Source: Streptomyces sp. 2131.1 (GTDB taxonomy: Bacteria; Actinomycetota; Actinomycetes; Streptomycetales; Streptomycetaceae). Taken from it: a DNA stretch of 64,000 nt. The notes beneath the pieces are model-generated. The model worked only from the letters and a program-made list of their open reading frames with translations. It was not told the origin of the DNA and made no database searches. Made by a program: the position numbers and the translations under genes. Below, one piece after another: positions 2,161 through 37,209 of the stretch (positions within the stretch are counted from its first letter, which is position 1; every line of letters begins with the position of its first letter). The stretch is taken from NCBI RefSeq assembly GCF_900105515.1, contig NZ_FNSY01000001.1, positions 4,576,001 through 4,640,000 on the forward strand, in the 5' to 3' direction.

Positions 2161-2712
2161 CTAGCCCCGCCCGGTGGCCGGTCCGGGGTCATCCGGCTCG
2201 TCCGGCGGATCCGGCTCCGCTGCGGCGGGCGCCTCCGGCTCCTCGGCCAGCACCAGCCGGGCCACGACCGCGTCGGCGATCGCCTCGGCCTGTGCGGTCT
2301 CCAGCCCTCGCTGCCTGCCCGTCGCCAGGACCTGGGCACGTACCGCTGCCAGCTGTTCCCGCGTCAACGGCGGTATCCCGGCCGCCGGAACCGGCCGCCG
2401 CCGCGGCACCAGCCGTCGCATCATGGCCGTCACTCCCTGGGAGATACGCGTCGCCGTCGACTCCGCCGTCCGTTGCGCCACCCCGTCGAGTACCAGCCAG
2501 ACCACGGGTGCCACCAGCGCGGCGGCCTCGCCGACCCCGAATCCCAACGGTGTGTGGCGTCCGCCGCCGCCGCGGCGCAGCCGCCGCACCACCGTGGCGT
2601 CGTCGAACCGGCAGAGCCCCTCCACGAGCGGGAGTTCGTCGGGCGCGAGCTCCGTCACGACCGCACGCACCACATCACGCACCAGCGGACCGGACCGGTC
2701 GTCGGCGGTCAC
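2161..2712 (-). CDS. Hypothetical protein coupled to the M48 protease
   Basis: This 183-residue frame ends in TAG immediately before the ATG of the M48 gene, so the two are probably one operon. I chose GTG 2712 (protein beginning VTADDRSG), preceded by a purine-rich GGAACCGAT stretch; an upstream start near 2793 is also open. The protein has a middle hydrophobic stretch around APVVWLVLDGVA, a basic patch (RRLVPRRRPVP), a helical segment rich in Ala and Gln, and an acidic Pro/Glu/Asp tail. I do not recognise a named domain. Its position suggests a regulator or partner of the protease, but that is inference. Confidence 0.6.
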   Translation of the reverse strand: MTADDRSGPLVRDVVRAVVTELAPDELPLVEGLCRFDDATVVRRLRRGGGGRHTPLGFGVGEAAALVAPVVWLVLDGVAQRTAESTATRISQGVTAMMRRLVPRRRPVPAAGIPPLTREQLAAVRAQVLATGRQRGLETAQAEAIADAVVARLVLAEEPEAPAAAEPDPPDEPDDPGPATGRG

Positions 2713-2867
2713 ATCGGTTCCGGATCCCACTCGTCGCCCCCAGACGTCCCGAGCCGATCCCGGCCCGCAGTGAAACGGCCTCCGACCCAGCACTGTCCCA
2801 CGTGAGGTGACGGGTCGACAGGGCTTCGGCAGGACCGCGTCACGCAGCCTCAGTCACGAGTGCGATT

Positions 2868-3461
2868 TCAGGCCGACGGGCACTTTCCTGTCGCGACGTG
2901 CAGGGTGACGTTTTCCGAGGGGTCGTACGGTTCGCCAGGTTTCGGGCTCTGGCTGCAGATCTCTCCGTGCACCCGAGAGATTTCCTGCTGGTCGACAATG
3001 CCGGGGCCTCCGTAGAAAACATCGATGAAGCGGCTGTTGTATCCCTTCTTCAGGAGCTGGGCGTAGGACTTGTCGAAGTCCTTGCCTATGAGATCGGGCG
3101 TCCTGGGGGCGGGGACATGGGCGTTCCAATGAGACGGGCACGTTTCCCCGCGCGGGACAGCACCGAAATCAACGGAGTCCGGACCGTCTCCTTCTCTCGT
3201 CAAACAAGCCCTCCACAGTTCCGCGTGCTGCAGATCCACGGTCCGTCCGAGGTCCGTCGCATCTCGGACGGAGTAGCCGAGGTCCTTCTCGACGGCTTCC
3301 TTCATTTTTACGGGCAGACTGTCCGGAGGCAGGGGCGTGGACGCGGGTCCACTTCGCGTGGCTGAGGCCGTGCCGTCGGATGAATGGTTCGAACAGGCTG
3401 CGCTCAAGGCGGTGACCGCCAAGATCAAAGCCATGCTCCTGCCAAGCGTTTTCGATTTCAT
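2868..3461 (-). CDS. Secreted lipoprotein with C-terminal PASTA-like domain
   Basis: A 197-residue protein starting MKSKTLGRSMALIL has a type II signal peptide with lipobox LSAAC, so it should be lipid-anchored on the outer face of the membrane. The C-terminal third reads like a PASTA repeat: PDLIGKDF, then a helix with YAQLLKKGYN, then SQSPKPGE and VTLHVATG. PASTA domains bind muropeptides or peptidoglycan, usually on Ser/Thr kinases and penicillin-binding proteins; a free lipoprotein version is less usual. Codon use is unlike the neighbours, with ATA, AGA, TCA, AGT, CGA and several TTG codons, which suggests recent acquisition. ATG 3461 is chosen because the signal peptide begins exactly there; the open frame upstream is only GC-driven. 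Confidence 0.8.
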   Translation of the reverse strand: MKSKTLGRSMALILAVTALSAACSNHSSDGTASATRSGPASTPLPPDSLPVKMKEAVEKDLGYSVRDATDLGRTVDLQHAELWRACLTREGDGPDSVDFGAVPRGETCPSHWNAHVPAPRTPDLIGKDFDKSYAQLLKKGYNSRFIDVFYGGPGIVDQQEISRVHGEICSQSPKPGEPYDPSENVTLHVATGKCPSA

Positions 3462-15458: not shown

Positions 15459-15465
15459 CTGTCTG

Positions 15466-15539
15466 TGCGCCGCCAGGGACTCGAACCCCGGACCCGCTGA
15501 TTAAGAGTCAGCTGCTCTAACCAACTGAGCTAGCGGCGC
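15466..15539 (-). tRNA. tRNA-Lys (anticodon CTT), copy 1
   Basis: A 74-nt cloverleaf on the minus strand: acceptor GCGCCGC paired with GCGGCGC, D arm GCTCAGTTGGTTAGAGC, anticodon stem-loop with CTCTTAA (anticodon CTT), T loop TTCGAGT, discriminator A. CCA is not encoded. Identical copies lie at 21538-21611 and 31701-31774. Confidence 0.97.
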
Positions 15540-21532: not shown

Positions 21533-21537
21533 GTCTG

Positions 21538-21611
21538 TGCGCCGCCAGGGACTCGAACCCCGGACCCGCTGATTAAGAGTCAGCTGCTCTAACCAACTGA
21601 GCTAGCGGCGC
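21538..21611 (-). tRNA. tRNA-Lys (anticodon CTT), copy 2
   Basis: Identical over all 74 bases to the tRNA-Lys at 15466-15539, with the same short flanks: CTGCTGAC next to the 5' end and GTCTG next to the 3' end, as read on the plus strand. Confidence 0.97.
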
Positions 21612-31694: not shown

Positions 31695-31700
31695 CGTCTG

Positions 31701-31774
31701 TGCGCCGCCAGGGACTCGAACCCCGGACCCGCTGATTAAGAGTCAGCTGCTCTAACCAACTGAGCTAGCGGCGC
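31701..31774 (-). tRNA. tRNA-Lys (anticodon CTT), copy 3
   Basis: Third identical 74-nt copy. Its first 10 bases overlap the end of the upstream protein gene, whose TAG stop is formed by tRNA bases 8-10. Confidence 0.97.
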
Positions 31775-32579: not shown

Positions 32580-32921
32580 CTACGACGGCGGCGCGTTCAG
32601 CAGAGTGCGGCCGAACTCGACCATCTTCTTCGCGTAGTCCTCGGTCCATTCCGCACGCCGAGCGATGTCTGCGGTCGTGAGCCGGTCGAACCGGCGCGGA
32701 TCCGCCAGCTGCGCCGCGGCTATCGCCTGGAACTCCACCGCACGGTCGGTCGCGGCGCGGAACGCCAGGGCCAGTTCCGTCGCCCGGCCCAGCAGCTCCT
32801 TCGGATCGTCCATCGACTCCAGGTCGAAGAAGTGCTCCGGGTCCGCGACCGCCGCGGCCGGCTCGAAGAGCAGGGGTGCGGGACGCAGCCGCTGCTGCTC
32901 GCTCCGCTCGGGTTGTGCCAT
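32580..32921 (-). CDS. Small conserved hypothetical protein
   Basis: A 113-residue protein from ATG 32921 with a strong GGAGGA upstream. It is mostly helical: LESMDDPKELLGRATELALAFRAATDRAVEFQAIAAAQL, then a second helical part DRLTTADIARRAEWTEDYAKKMVEFGRTLL, in which DIARRAEWTEDYAKKMV resembles a helix-turn-helix. No catalytic motif. It lies between the SF1 helicase gene (115 bases upstream) and the prim-pol-like gene on the same strand, so it may belong to the helicase-nuclease transcription unit. The function is unknown. Confidence 0.7.
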   Translation of the reverse strand: MAQPERSEQQRLRPAPLLFEPAAAVADPEHFFDLESMDDPKELLGRATELALAFRAATDRAVEFQAIAAAQLADPRRFDRLTTADIARRAEWTEDYAKKMVEFGRTLLNAPPS

Positions 32922-33035: not shown

Positions 33036-34370
33036 TCAACAAGCCGCGCGCACGCGGTGTTCCGCCAGATGGGCCAGGACCGCGTGGTTCGCCTCCCAGC
33101 CGTCCGGGAACTTCACCGTGACGCCGAGCTGGACCGGTTCCGTCGACGGGTGTTCGTCCAGGAGGTCCGCCACGCCCTCGCGGCAGACCACGATGCACGC
33201 GTGACGGTGGCGGGAGGCCAGGACGCAGAGGCGGCCCGTCTCCAGGTGGAACGCGGTGGCGTCCGGGCGGCCCGACAGGGGGTGCAGGACCACCGTCACG
33301 TCGAACTCGCGGCCCTGGAGGCGGTTCGCCGTGTCCACCGCGACCCCCGTCACGCCCAGCTCCGCCAGCGCGGCGCGCACCGCCGCGGCCTGGTCGCGGT
33401 GGGCCGTGCCGACCGCGACCCGGTCCGCCGTCACCGGGGCCGGGTCGGGGGAGCGCTCACTGACGGCGGCCCCGCCCCGGTCCAGCAGGCGGCGTACCAC
33501 CAGGGCGACGGCGCGGACCGCCTCCGGGTCGGTGCGCGGGGTGTGCCGGGCCGGCAGTTCGAGGAGGCCCCAGCCCGACTCCGCCGCCTCGTCCAGCACC
33601 CGGTCCGCCGCCGACCCGTCCGACGCGACACCGAAGGACAGCCGCCGGTCGCCGTGGTCCGTGCCGCTGCGGAACGGGGTGTACGGGTAGAACGCGTCCG
33701 ACACCAGCGGCGCGGCCGAGGCCGGGAGCCGCCAGGAGACCGGCAGCCGGTGCTGCGGCAGCTGCGGGTTGTGCGCGAGCAAGGTGCTCACCGCGCCCGC
33801 CGAGGGGTCGTAGCTCAGCCCCGCCCACTGGTCCGCGCCGACGATCGAGAACGGGTCCAGCTGGCCCGGGTCGCCCACGAACAGCGCCCGTTCGAAGAGC
33901 CCGGCCACGGCGAGCAGCGCGTCCGAGCGCATCTGGTACGCCTCGTCGACGATCGCGTGCCCCCACGGCTCCACGTTCTTCACATGGGCCCACTTCGCCG
34001 CCGTCGAGATGACGACGTCGAGGCCCGCCAGGTCCGCCGCCTTCGCGGACTTGCGCACGTTCTCCAGGCCGTCCAGCACCTTGTCGTACGGGTCGGGGTC
34101 GTTGCTGTGCAGCCGGCCCACCGGAAGCCCGGGCTCCTTCTCCGCGAGCCGCACCACCAGGTCGTCCACCTGCGCGTTCGTCTGCGCGACCACCATCAGC
34201 GGACGGCCCGCCGCGGCCAGCTCCAGCGCGGCGCGCACCACCAGCGTCGACTTGCCCGCGCCCGGCGGGGAGTCCACCACTACGCCCCGGGCCGTGCCCT
34301 TCAGAGTGTCGTCCAGAATCCTCGCGGTCGCCAGGCCCGCCGCCGCGCCCGGGTCGAATACGGCCGTCAC
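33036..34370 (-). CDS. Superfamily 1 helicase (DNA2/NAM7-like)
   Basis: A 444-residue SF1B-type helicase from GTG 34370, which overlaps the upstream stop (GTGA). Motifs in order: I VVVDSPPGAGKSTLVVRA, Ia MVVAQTNAQVDDLVVRL, II AIVDEAYQM, III ALFVGDPGQLDPF, IV LPVSWRLPASAAP, V VDTANRLQGREFDVTVV and VI LASRHRHACIVVCRE. This is the AAA_11/AAA_12 pattern of Dna2, Upf1 and SMUBP2 helicases without their accessory domains. It should use ATP to translocate 5'-3' on single-stranded nucleic acid. It is encoded last of three overlapping genes with a RecB-like nuclease. Confidence 0.88.
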   Translation of the reverse strand: MTAVFDPGAAAGLATARILDDTLKGTARGVVVDSPPGAGKSTLVVRAALELAAAGRPLMVVAQTNAQVDDLVVRLAEKEPGLPVGRLHSNDPDPYDKVLDGLENVRKSAKAADLAGLDVVISTAAKWAHVKNVEPWGHAIVDEAYQMRSDALLAVAGLFERALFVGDPGQLDPFSIVGADQWAGLSYDPSAGAVSTLLAHNPQLPQHRLPVSWRLPASAAPLVSDAFYPYTPFRSGTDHGDRRLSFGVASDGSAADRVLDEAAESGWGLLELPARHTPRTDPEAVRAVALVVRRLLDRGGAAVSERSPDPAPVTADRVAVGTAHRDQAAAVRAALAELGVTGVAVDTANRLQGREFDVTVVLHPLSGRPDATAFHLETGRLCVLASRHRHACIVVCREGVADLLDEHPSTEPVQLGVTVKFPDGWEANHAVLAHLAEHRVRAAC

Positions 34371-35977
34371 AGCAGGTCCTCCGGGGTCACGGGGTCGGGC
34401 AGCTCGGCCGCTTCGAGGCCGCCCGGCGGGCCGCCGTGGGTCCACGGGGTCTCCTCGGCGTCCGGCAGCTGCGGCCCGCCGCGCTGGTCGTGCTCGAACA
34501 GGGTCCAGGCGATCCGGTCGCCCGGCTCCGGGACCGACCCCGGGGCGGGCTCCTTGCCGCGCCCCATCCGGTCGGTGATCCGCAGCACCAGCGAGGGCGC
34601 GCCGCCCTCCCCGTCCGCCGGGCCGTACCCGGCGAACTGGGCGGTCTGCGGCTTGCCGTCCAGCGAGCGGTAGACCTTCACCCCCTCGCTCAGCTGCGGC
34701 CGCTCGTCGGTGCGGACGGTGACCAGCGGGCGCGGCGAGGGCCGCTTCGACTCGCTGTACGCCATCTCCACCGCGCTCACCTCGCCGATGAAAGCCTCCC
34801 CGGCCAGCCGGCGGCCCGCCAGGACCAGCGGATCGTCCAGCGCCTCCTGCGCCTCCAGCTGCGCCTGCGCCGTCTCGCGGGCGGCCAGCTTGCGGGCGGC
34901 CGTCACCGCGTCGTCCCGGCGCGGCTGCGGCGGCTCACCGGAGCGGACCCGGTCGCGGTGGGCGGTGAACGACCAGCGGTCCCGGGTCCAGCGGTCCTCG
35001 GTCCTGGCCCCCTCGGGCAGCTCGCGCAGCAGGTCCAGGCCCCGCCACACCGCGTCCCAGGTCGGCCGGAGCACCCCGGCGAGCAGCGCCCTGATCTCGC
35101 GCTCGGCCCCGGTCAGCTCGGCGAGCCGGGCATCGGCCGCGAGCCCGTCCTCGGCCGCCGCCAGCGAGGCGCGCGCCCGGTCGTACTTCTCGATCGCCGG
35201 GGCCAGCAGCCGGTTGTCGAAATCGGGGTCGGTGGCCGGGCCGGCCGGCGGGCACAGCAGCTGCCCCGACGCGTCCCGGGCCAGCTCCGCGCGGAGCGCC
35301 GCCTCCGCGCCGGACTCGCCGGCGGGCGGGTCGATCCAGGCGAGCAGGGCCCCCAGGTGCTGGTCCTCCAGATTGGACTGGCCGGTCGCCCAGTGCCGGT
35401 TGAGGAGATCGGTGCAGGCGAGCAGGAGCGAGGAGCCGGGGACCCGGGCCCGCTCGCCGTAGTGCGTCAGCCAGCGCCCGAGCAAGGGGACCCGGGCGGG
35501 CGCCGGATACGGCGTGTCCGGGTCGTCCTCGGCGGTGCGCCGGAACCGCATGGAGCGGCCCAGCAGCCGGACGAACTCGACGCCCGCCCGGCTCGGCACG
35601 ACGATCTGCGCCGCGTCCACGCACAGCTCGGTCTCGACCTTGACGCGCTTGCCGGTCGCCGGATCGGTCTCGCCCCGCTCCGCGGGCTCGACGACGTCCG
35701 CGTACGACTCGATGTGCGGCAGCACCGCCTCGGCCAGCTCGGCGAGGAACGCGAACCGCAGGTCCCGGTCGCGGGGCTGGGCCACGGCCAGCAGCCGGGG
35801 CGCCTCCCGGTCCGTGCCGACGAGCGCGCCGAGCGGGGCGCCCGCCTCGCCCGCCGTGGTCAGCGGCACCAGGACGAGCGGCCGGTCGGTCAGCCGGCGG
35901 TGGCGGACGGTGGCCGTCGGCCGGGCGCGGCCGCTCTCCACGGCCTCCAGCCGGGCCAGCGTGGTGATCAGTGACAT
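34367..35977 (-). CDS. Uncharacterised 536-residue protein between nuclease and helicase
   Basis: The gene overlaps its upstream neighbour by 10 bases and the helicase by 4 bases, so the three are surely one operon. The protein starts MSLITTLARLEAVESGRA. I do not recognise a domain. Features: an N-terminal beta-rich third (RPLVLVPLTTAGE, LCVDAAQIVVPSRAGVEFVRLLGRSMRF), a central charged helical part (EKYDRARASLAAAEDGLAADARLAELTGAEREIRALLAG, described by its ends), a segment ETAQAQLEAQEALDDPLVLAGRRLAGEAFIGEVSAVEMAYSE, and an acidic Pro-rich tail. It has no transmembrane helix or signal peptide. It may be the specificity or scaffold subunit of the complex. Confidence 0.78.
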   Translation of the reverse strand: MSLITTLARLEAVESGRARPTATVRHRRLTDRPLVLVPLTTAGEAGAPLGALVGTDREAPRLLAVAQPRDRDLRFAFLAELAEAVLPHIESYADVVEPAERGETDPATGKRVKVETELCVDAAQIVVPSRAGVEFVRLLGRSMRFRRTAEDDPDTPYPAPARVPLLGRWLTHYGERARVPGSSLLLACTDLLNRHWATGQSNLEDQHLGALLAWIDPPAGESGAEAALRAELARDASGQLLCPPAGPATDPDFDNRLLAPAIEKYDRARASLAAAEDGLAADARLAELTGAEREIRALLAGVLRPTWDAVWRGLDLLRELPEGARTEDRWTRDRWSFTAHRDRVRSGEPPQPRRDDAVTAARKLAARETAQAQLEAQEALDDPLVLAGRRLAGEAFIGEVSAVEMAYSESKRPSPRPLVTVRTDERPQLSEGVKVYRSLDGKPQTAQFAGYGPADGEGGAPSLVLRITDRMGRGKEPAPGSVPEPGDRIAWTLFEHDQRGGPQLPDAEETPWTHGGPPGGLEAAELPDPVTPEDLL

Positions 35978-37209
35978 GCGACGCGCCCCTCCAGTGCCTC
36001 GGCGCGCAGGGCCGCCGCGCGGCGCAGGGCGGCGACCGCGGGGTCAGCCGGGTCGCCCTCCTTGCCCGCGGCCGCGGCCAGCACCCCGGCGACCGTGGTC
36101 AGACCGCCCAGCTCGCCCCGCACCCCGCGGCCCAGCGCCTCCACGGCGCCCTCGGCGCGGGCCCGGGACCGGCAGTGGAAGGCCAGCTCGCAGGCGGACA
36201 GGCACTCCGGCGCATAGGCGGCGGCGACCGACTCGACGGCCGTCTCCAGGTCTTCGGGGGAGCGCTCCGGGTCGAAGGTGGCGCCCTCGGGGAGGGCCGC
36301 CGCGATCTCGTCGACGCGGGTGAGCCGGGTCAGCTGGCGGCGGGTGACGGCGCGCTGCTTGCGTACGTCCACGACGGAGGCGGCCGGCAGGTTCGAGAAG
36401 TCCTTCGGGCAGACCAGCAGCACCCGGTGGCCCACCCGGGCCCCGTCCGTGACCTCCGCGACCCGCTCCAGCGCCAGCACGTACACCGCGGACTGACGGG
36501 CCGCCGCACCCACCTTCGCGGCGTCCGCGGAACCGTCGACCATGGGGAACGACTTGATCTCGACGACCGTCCAGGTGCCGTCGGGGTGCACCACCACCGC
36601 GTCCGGCTCCAGATAGGCCGGGGAACCGGCCACCTCCAGGGCGAGCATCGGGTGGTCCAGCAGCGCCCAGCCGTCGGCCCCGGTCGCCTCCCGCAGCGCC
36701 AGCGCGGTGCGGGCCGCGCGGCCCTCGGGTCCGGCGGCGGCCAGATCGGGCGTCGCGACCTCGCGCGGCGGTTCACCGGAGCCGCCGAGCCGCTCGTGCA
36801 GCAGCCGCATCAGCTCCGTACCGCCGTCGGCCTTGACCCGGGCCTCGAAGGCGTTGCCCCGCATGAAGGCGAACTGGGACTGGCCGAAGGGGGCCGGTGA
36901 GCCCAGCGCCGAGGCGAGCGCGCCCTTGTCGACCCCGGCCCCGTCGAGCAGGGCGCGGCGCTTGCAGCCCGGGTTGGCGGCGAGGGCCGCGAGCGCGCGG
37001 GCGTCCAGCGGGCGCGGGGCGACCGCCGGGCCTCTCAGCTCAGCGAGCCGCCGTCGCAGGGTCCCCGTCGGGGGACCGTCCTGACCGGCCGGCGCCGTCG
37101 GCCCGGGCAGGCGGACCGGCCGCTGCTGCCGCGTCGGATGGTTCTGCGGAGGAGGTCCGCTGGCCGGGGATTCGCTCACCCGCCGAAGTCTTGCATCCGG
37201 CACTGACAT
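35968..37209 (-). CDS. RecB/Cas4-like Fe-S PD-(D/E)XK nuclease
   Basis: A 413-residue protein. RecB-family motifs are all visible: RGNAFE (E122), EPDAVVV (D203), VVEIKS (E217 and K219) and QSAVY (Q239 to Y243, the QxxxY motif). Cysteines are placed as in Cas4, AddB and Dna2: C82 before the nuclease core and ECLSACELAFHC (C336, C340, C346) after it, enough for a 4Fe-4S cluster. The spacing C-x3-C differs by one from the common C-x2-C. The first 50 residues are Pro/Gln/Arg-rich. The start is ATG 37209 or GTG 37179; either overlaps the PAP2 gene by about 140-170 bases. Predicted role: single-strand DNA nuclease working with the SF1 helicase. Confidence 0.85.
   Translation of the reverse strand: MSVPDARLRRVSESPASGPPPQNHPTRQQRPVRLPGPTAPAGQDGPPTGTLRRRLAELRGPAVAPRPLDARALAALAANPGCKRRALLDGAGVDKGALASALGSPAPFGQSQFAFMRGNAFEARVKADGGTELMRLLHERLGGSGEPPREVATPDLAAAGPEGRAARTALALREATGADGWALLDHPMLALEVAGSPAYLEPDAVVVHPDGTWTVVEIKSFPMVDGSADAAKVGAAARQSAVYVLALERVAEVTDGARVGHRVLLVCPKDFSNLPAASVVDVRKQRAVTRRQLTRLTRVDEIAAALPEGATFDPERSPEDLETAVESVAAAYAPECLSACELAFHCRSRARAEGAVEALGRGVRGELGGLTTVAGVLAAAAGKEGDPADPAVAALRRAAALRAEALEGRVACH

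Follow-up and report, generated by a model that had tools for sequence, protein, structure and literature searches.

A conserved three-gene nuclease-helicase locus of Streptomyces with the predicted parts of a split DNA2-like enzyme

Streptomyces sp. 2131.1 carries three genes, here called nuc, mid and hel, on the minus strand of a 64,000-nucleotide stretch of contig NZ_FNSY01000001.1 (positions 4,576,001 to 4,640,000; hereafter the window), which lies at 4.58-4.64 Mb of a 7.22-Mb contig in a genome of 7.49 Mb. Re-reading of the open reading frames (ORFs) bore out the coordinates, strands and lengths of the first-pass annotation, along with its overlaps of 10 bases between nuc and mid and 4 bases between mid and hel (Table 1); hel has a single match within its own genome. 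The first-pass annotation had proposed a Dna2-like complex of separate subunits. The part of that claim concerning a split module stands, as the genes are conserved together, nuc has a predicted RecB fold and the closest solved relative of hel is Dna2. The three proteins are probably a DNA-end-processing enzyme resembling DNA2 and the bacterial protein Bad, divided over separate chains, with a housekeeping task in Streptomyces and reused in defence islands.

Table 1. Positions of the nuc, mid and hel genes and their predicted parts (window numbering), and of hyp281 (numbering of locus L087)
Feature	Position	Strand	Description	Basis
nuc	35968..37209	-	413 aa, predicted RecB-family PD-(D/E)XK nuclease	ORF, fold and conservation
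mid	34367..35977	-	536 aa, putative middle subunit	ORF; family-less in libraries searched
hel	33036..34370	-	444 aa, GTG start at 34370, DNA2/UPF1-type superfamily 1 (SF1) motor	
nuc codon C82	36964..36966	-	predicted iron-sulphur (Fe-S) cysteine 1	141/142 homologues
nuc codons C336-x3-C340-x5-C346	36172..36204	-	predicted Fe-S cysteines 2-4	141/142 homologues
mid residues ~31-330	34988..35887	-	predicted RNase H/DnaQ-like domain	VIA-align of model
mid residues ~355-495	34493..34915	-	predicted stalk and beta-barrel (domain 1B) of UPF1-type SF1B helicases	VIA-align of model
hel residues 34-42	34245..34271	-	Walker A, SPPGAGKST	K40 in 115/115 homologues
hyp281 (L087)	2318-3163	+	upstream of nuc in second-type copies	conserved

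Conservation and linkage of the three genes

The three genes are distributed together. Of 147 order genomes, 136 contain mid and the identical 136 contain nuc, both being missing from the same 11, while hel is detected in 140, namely those 136 plus four with weak generic matches (E 5e-5 to 9e-4). The core set is present in 129 of the 132 Streptomyces genomes, and the three genomes that lack it are small (4.8-6.0 Mb). At the level of the class, 29 of 197 genomes have mid and the same 29 have nuc, with one further weak nuc match (G309); mid occurs in 13 of the 181 class genomes outside the genus, 12 of which were examined at the locus (all except the fragmented G288). In the phylum, nine of the 10 genomes with mid (out of 198) belong to the class, and the tenth match (G329), weak and with stops, was taken as chance. 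Because nuc, mid and hel co-occur as neighbours across the genus, their grouping is not chance.

A wider scan of species genomes covered the best 80 of at least 591 mid relatives, ranked by likeness to a query linked to SbcCD and Wadjet. These loci come from Streptomyces, Nocardia, Micromonospora, Actinomadura, Streptosporangiaceae, Pseudonocardiaceae and others. In 79 of them nuc adjoins mid, and the remaining locus is cut by a contig end. The helicase gene adjoins mid in 53 loci, lies farther away in three, is absent from the flank in 22 and has no room in two. All 22 loci without a neighbouring hel are from Micromonospora or Verrucosispora. A hel gene was present elsewhere in the genome in all six non-adjacent cases tested (four of those 22 and two class genomes of like arrangement), so the three genes keep company without adjacency; in G236 and G327 the distance from nuc-mid is ~36 and ~49 kb. 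Loss of linkage had been named beforehand as the outcome that would undo the proposed grouping, and a gene-neighbourhood check found the linkage conserved.

We found no relative of mid or hel in phage records and none of mid in viral contigs (nuc was not searched there), so that these searches lend no support to a viral origin. Plasmid records yielded mid in three of 72,556, one of these being a record of 11.9 Mb filed as a plasmid. Among the titles and abstract openings listed by searches of the open-access literature (PubMed Central, PMC), none described the nuc-mid-hel set.

Predicted folds and motifs

By Pfam, nuc has a weak match to PDDEXK_1 (E 0.027, below the cut-off). Its AlphaFold2 model (predicted local distance difference test, pLDDT, 86; predicted template-modelling score, pTM, 0.80) is matched by VIA-align to Cas4 at the top (Z 10.8), followed by RecE (9.2), EXO5 (9.1), AddAB (8.4), AdnAB (8.2) and Dna2 (6.9), with lambda exonuclease and MGME1 also among the matches. 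No use was made of matches whose titles name proteins other than PD-(D/E)XK nucleases (a DinG in rank 8 and, towards the end, ribosome-bound chains), and weak matches to engineered repeat proteins and others were discarded as chance. As judged from this model, nuc is a RecB nuclease in fold, and lack of that fold was another outcome set beforehand as refuting the proposal.

All residues named in the first-pass annotation are present in nuc, both the RecB motifs (E122, D203, E217-x-K219, Q239-x3-Y243) and the four cysteines (C82, C336, C340, C346). They are conserved as well: among 142 homologues, a set that includes two loci twice (L037/L097 and L045/L100), the frame-broken L107 and the truncated L147, each cysteine is kept in 141, E122 in 137, D203 in 138, E217 in 137 and K219 in 136. 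The exception at C82 is the truncated homologue, and that at C336, C340 and C346 the frame-broken one. The cysteines span the nuclease in the iron-staple pattern of Cas4, AddB and Dna2, with x3 and x5 spacing, a pattern from which nuc is predicted to carry an Fe-S cluster; the nuclease domain of AddB is credited in PMC7430649 with being the first 'iron staple' described. Besides L107, eight of the 142 rows lack at least one catalytic residue while retaining all four cysteines (L039-L043, L135, L164, L169). Across the first five of these, which are second copies treated below, E122H, E217L and K219R are found in three and changes at D203, K219 and Y243 in two. No core-Streptomyces row departs at the catalytic residues. 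Conservation is poor over the first ~45 residues of nuc, and residues 1-44 have pLDDT <50, so the true start may lie downstream.

The motor protein hel matches Pfam AAA_11 (E 5e-11) and AAA_12 (E 3.5e-7), and no UvrD-helicase family, the SF1A type of AddAB, AdnAB and RecBCD, appears in its Pfam list at E <= 1. Its closest relative of solved structure is Dna2 (E 1.3e-11). It also matches residues 206-265 of IGHMBP2 and, more weakly, residues 331-611; in NCBIfam its top matches, PLuB_AAA and the IGHMBP2 family, fall far below their cut-offs. Matches to PLuB, Mokosh, Hhe and Dpd proteins cover the motor only and were discarded. Residues K40, D142, E143, Q170 and R387 are present in 115 of 115 homologues, and the motif residues as a whole vary little or not at all, in agreement with the earlier reading of hel as a Dna2/Upf1-type SF1 helicase. 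Among the hel homologues the median length ahead of PPGxGKST is 34 residues (n=112), which leaves no room for a domain 1B of hel's own; mid seems to supply it.

The earlier description of mid as a protein without a recognised domain holds for Pfam, NCBIfam and PADLOC, which gave no credible family match (weak hits to GPAT_C, Caa3_CtaG and ORF C62 were discarded as chance), and has to be changed for structure. An AlphaFold2 model built with 31 homologues (pLDDT 87.4, pTM 0.84) aligns over residues 355-495 with IGHMBP2 residues 10-140 (VIA-align Z 9.7, root-mean-square deviation 4.2, 111 residues), and also with Sen1 (Z 8.9) and senataxin (Z 8.3). This stalk and barrel, domain 1B, is the part that precedes the motor in IGHMBP2 and SEN1. 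The match is backed by complementarity, since mid corresponds to IGHMBP2 10-140 and hel to the segments 206-265 and 331-611, and suggests that domain 1B of this helicase was transferred to a separate protein. Residues ~31-330 in the whole-mid model resemble the exonuclease region of family-B DNA polymerases (Z 8.4-9.5 over 170-188 residues). DEDD (DnaQ-like) exonucleases have D-x-E in the first strand; none of the 141 mid homologues has D or E at positions 34-40, the first strand of the RNase H-like domain, which makes DEDD chemistry unlikely, and the domain is probably not a DEDD exonuclease. The scaffold role first proposed for mid is revised accordingly in the light of the model: mid seems to carry the 1B stalk and barrel of the helicase together with a degenerate RNase H-like domain, and thus to be more than a scaffold.

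Second copies and gene neighbourhoods

A diverged second copy, complete with nuc, mid and hel, is present in twelve Streptomyces genomes; its mid is 41-49% identical. Ten of these copies were examined at the locus (all except G031 and G066), and all ten add a fourth gene, hyp281, for which no Pfam or PADLOC match was found. Of the 147 order genomes, 17 have hyp281: all 12 that carry a second copy, the three of loci L036-L038, G079, where it stands alone, and G039, which has a fragment. It was not found in the genome of strain 2131.1. SbcCD (Mre11-Rad50) adjoins five of the ten second copies (L044-L048), and a shared divergent gene cluster adjoins another four (L039, L041, L042, L043); in L039, the only one scanned, this cluster matches the pPIWI_RE-island proteins PprPDDEXK, PprRE and PprDinG. 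Four of the five second copies with altered nuc catalytic residues (L039-L043) adjoin this divergent cluster. A superfamily 2 helicase with helicase-associated (HA) repeats lies directly downstream of hel in L046 (3294-5543, minus strand), and also in L047 and L048.

SbcCD is also present at the order loci L036-L038, and JetA-C at L046. Two Streptomyces plasmids have SbcC-SbcD in divergent orientation to hyp281-nuc-mid-hel, behind which come JetA-JetB-JetC-JetD; JetA and JetC of the first plasmid are matched by PADLOC models, and SbcCD is in pieces on NZ_CP027023. Among the 80 ranked loci, SbcD adjoins 21, in 18 divergent upstream and in three downstream, and at least two Jet (Wadjet) genes lie beside eight, in addition to the Jet genes of L046 and of both plasmid copies. 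In the three downstream cases (L120, L130, L133) SbcD comes after hel and is co-directional with it; this difference from the divergent SbcCD type points to a repeated association. Second copies in L087, L088 and L046 lie within ~5-20 kb of the record end, the records being one plasmid filed as linear, one plasmid filed as circular and one chromosome contig. This agrees with PMC10482375, which reports an enrichment of Wadjet in Actinobacteria and, within Streptomyces, near the ends of chromosomes.

A tree of 70 mid sequences, made by a quick method that leaves some forks open, places the six sampled core-Streptomyces proteins in one clade. The SbcCD label changes four times on this tree, against a mean of 21.2 after shuffling. 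Members of the main SbcCD clade come from Streptomyces, Nocardia, Amycolatopsis, Nonomuraea and Catenulispora, a mixture expected from lateral transfer. Searches of PADLOC-DB 2.0.0 returned no match for nuc or mid and only partial motor matches for hel.

Around the core copy in the window, a comparison of ten neighbouring proteins with PADLOC yielded three partial matches, all weak (E 1e-7 to 3e-8, 30-32 bits): to an oxidoreductase and to two proteins taken for a methyltransferase and an OmpR-type response regulator. We regard none of them as defence. Two downstream genes had been suggested as possible members of the system. The first encodes a 113-aa protein (32580-32921, minus strand) that stands beside all three core loci with flanks (L049-L051), 69-73% identical, and at none of the other loci searched; being limited to core-Streptomyces loci, it was set aside as a partner. 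The second, the supposed prim-pol-like protein, is not supported as a member: it has no prim-pol match in Pfam or NCBIfam at E <= 1, and its sole NCBIfam match is to the SCO3374 family (E 1.1e-14, below the model cut-off). Inside the window, three identical tRNA-Lys(CTT) genes lie in a stretch of ~16 kb (15465-15539, 21537-21611 and 31700-31774, all on the minus strand), each followed by its own hairpin-looking sequence, and one copy is ~1.3 kb downstream of hel.

Relation to known enzymes and possible role

Bad of Geobacillus stearothermophilus is the nearest counterpart by description: PMC7430649 describes in it, too, a four-cysteine RecB nuclease, an SF1B motor of the DNA2 type and a central part. 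It is a single chain that the article calls rare, whereas nuc, mid and hel are three chains and core to the genus. In Geobacilli it adjoins a type III-like DNA methyltransferase, while the second copies of the split set adjoin SbcCD or Wadjet. The central domain of Bad is called completely unknown there and is missing from eukaryotic DNA2 (PMC7430649), while mid is modelled as an RNase H-like fold plus 1B. Eukaryotic DNA2, too, is a single chain; it is the closest solved relative of hel and a match of the nuc model. Our set shares with the DNA2/Bad type the RecB fold with catalytic E, D, E-x-K and Q, the four-cysteine pattern and a DNA2/UPF1-type SF1B motor, with its 1B apparently in mid. As these parts lie in three ORFs and not in one chain, we do not file the set as a DNA2/Bad member, only as one that may work like it.

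AddAB and AdnAB are likewise multi-subunit helicase-nucleases with RecB nuclease domains, but their motor and nuclease parts share chains; in our set the two are on separate chains and the motor is UPF1/DNA2-like. IGHMBP2, SEN1 and UPF1 combine the 1B stalk-barrel and motor that mid and hel match together, in a single chain without a RecB nuclease. TIGR03491 (TM0106 family) proteins match in 15 of 60 class genomes, 14 of them above the cut-off, with none in the four own-genus genomes of that set or in strain 2131.1, and no TIGR03491 match at E <= 1 was found for nuc, mid or 28 nuc homologues. Two TIGR03491 frames of 1008 and 1025 aa (ending at the locus end) contain PDDEXK_1, RNase_H_2, a gap of ~230 residues and AAA helicase domains, so the domain order of these single-chain fusions equals the gene order nuc-mid-hel; their RNase_H_2 domain is recognisable (E 2e-23 and 1e-22), unlike that of mid. 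A two-gene relative was seen in G309 (L074, 1153-5345, minus strand), where the genes of an 896-aa protein with a nuc-like start and of a 501-aa helicase share 4 bases, and a restriction-modification-like gene (L074, 5450-8287) lies alongside. The first part of the 896-aa protein matches nuc by profile (probability 95.4, E 1.9e-8), and its middle part was not matched to mid by sequence.

Several observations weigh against a split DNA2/Bad-like enzyme that is housekeeping in the core and reused in defence. The fold match of mid is of moderate strength, because unrelated barrels (FNR) reach Z 7.9 in the same VIA-align list, just 1-2 below the matches used, and a plain Foldseek search of the mid model returned nothing at E <= 0.001. 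No sequence-profile link joined mid to the fused proteins (31-row and 141-row alignments) or to P0006 (141-row alignment), so the homology of mid rests on the model. Nor did nuc show a sequence link to the TIGR03491 fusions (28-row and 142-row alignments), in which PDDEXK_1 is above the cut-off in one protein and only below it in the other. In many Micromonospora hel lies apart from nuc-mid, the main exception to a single operon, and the nuc homologues that lack one or more catalytic residues imply that cleavage by nuc may not be required in every case. It is second copies, and not the core copy, that SbcCD and Wadjet adjoin, whose own SbcD is ~1.57 Mb off; one second copy, L040, has neither SbcCD nor the pPIWI_RE-type cluster nearby; and the frequencies among the 80 loci are biased upwards by the Wadjet/SbcCD-linked query used for ranking.

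Could the whole set, core copy included, be primarily a defence system against phages or plasmids? That second copies adjoin Wadjet or pPIWI_RE-type genes and occur on Streptomyces plasmids would fit, as would the mixed families of the SbcCD-linked clade, yet we judge this unlikely: the core copy is nearly universal in its genus and forms one clade in the samples, its genome lacks hyp281, its neighbours gave just the three weak PADLOC matches, and the phage searches with mid and hel and the viral-contig search with mid were empty. The anti-phage role proposed earlier suits the setting of many second copies and sits less naturally with the single-copy, near-universal genes of the window. For the core copy we prefer a housekeeping role, because it is near-universal in the genus and stands outside a defence island. 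A telomere function as the general role was set aside, as the genes also occur in Micromonospora and Streptosporangium, whose chromosomes are circular.

A somewhat less probable reading makes hel and mid a DNA-repair helicase in which nuc is an Fe-S structural or DNA-binding subunit with incidental nuclease activity. Invariant Walker A, Walker B and motif VI residues in hel, set beside the nuc rows that lost catalytic residues and kept the cysteines, speak for it; the retention of E122, D203, E217 and K219 each in 136-138 of 142 homologues, and in every core-Streptomyces row, speaks against it. It is very doubtful that the set is an RNA-processing complex, even though motors of the UPF1/IGHMBP2/senataxin type frequently work on RNA or on RNA-DNA hybrids, the 1B domain of mid resembles IGHMBP2 and Sen1, and the IGHMBP2 family is among the top NCBIfam matches of hel, since the closest solved sequence relative of hel is Dna2 and the partners are DNA enzymes (a RecB-fold nuclease, SbcCD, Wadjet).

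Under the favoured reading, a split DNA2/Bad-like enzyme, nuc, mid and hel would be three subunits of one ATP-driven end-processing complex. The SF1B motor hel would need the stalk and barrel of mid to hold single-stranded DNA, and the RNase H-like part of mid, its usual catalytic acids lost, would likely serve as a binding or docking module joining the motor to nuc, the Fe-S RecB nuclease that would cut the threaded strand. By analogy with Bad and DNA2, both described in PMC7430649 as cutting ahead of the motor, the enzyme may engage single strands with a 5' end, at DNA ends or flaps, and move 5' to 3', cutting ahead of itself. In Streptomyces the core copy would tend broken ends or forks, probably after or with SbcCD. 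The mobile second copies would consist of the enzyme plus hyp281, often joined to their own SbcCD and sometimes next to Wadjet, and could shred DNA already cut by the defence system.

More tentatively, the set might be an actinobacterial counterpart of Mre11-Rad50 plus Dna2, in which SbcCD opens the end and the split Dna2 with hyp281 resects or shreds it. Its mobile form would then be coupled to Wadjet as a cut-and-shred immunity: Wadjet would linearise a circular plasmid, SbcCD and the split Dna2 would destroy the product, and the protein-capped linear replicons of Streptomyces would be spared.

Bacterial DNA2-like enzymes were described in PMC7430649 as rare single chains with an unknown role and a central domain of unknown structure. 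The three-gene split, present in nearly all Streptomyces examined, offers a genetically tractable route to the role of such an enzyme and to the function of each part, and the ties of DNA2-like motors to SbcCD and Wadjet hint at the fate of DNA after a Wadjet cut.

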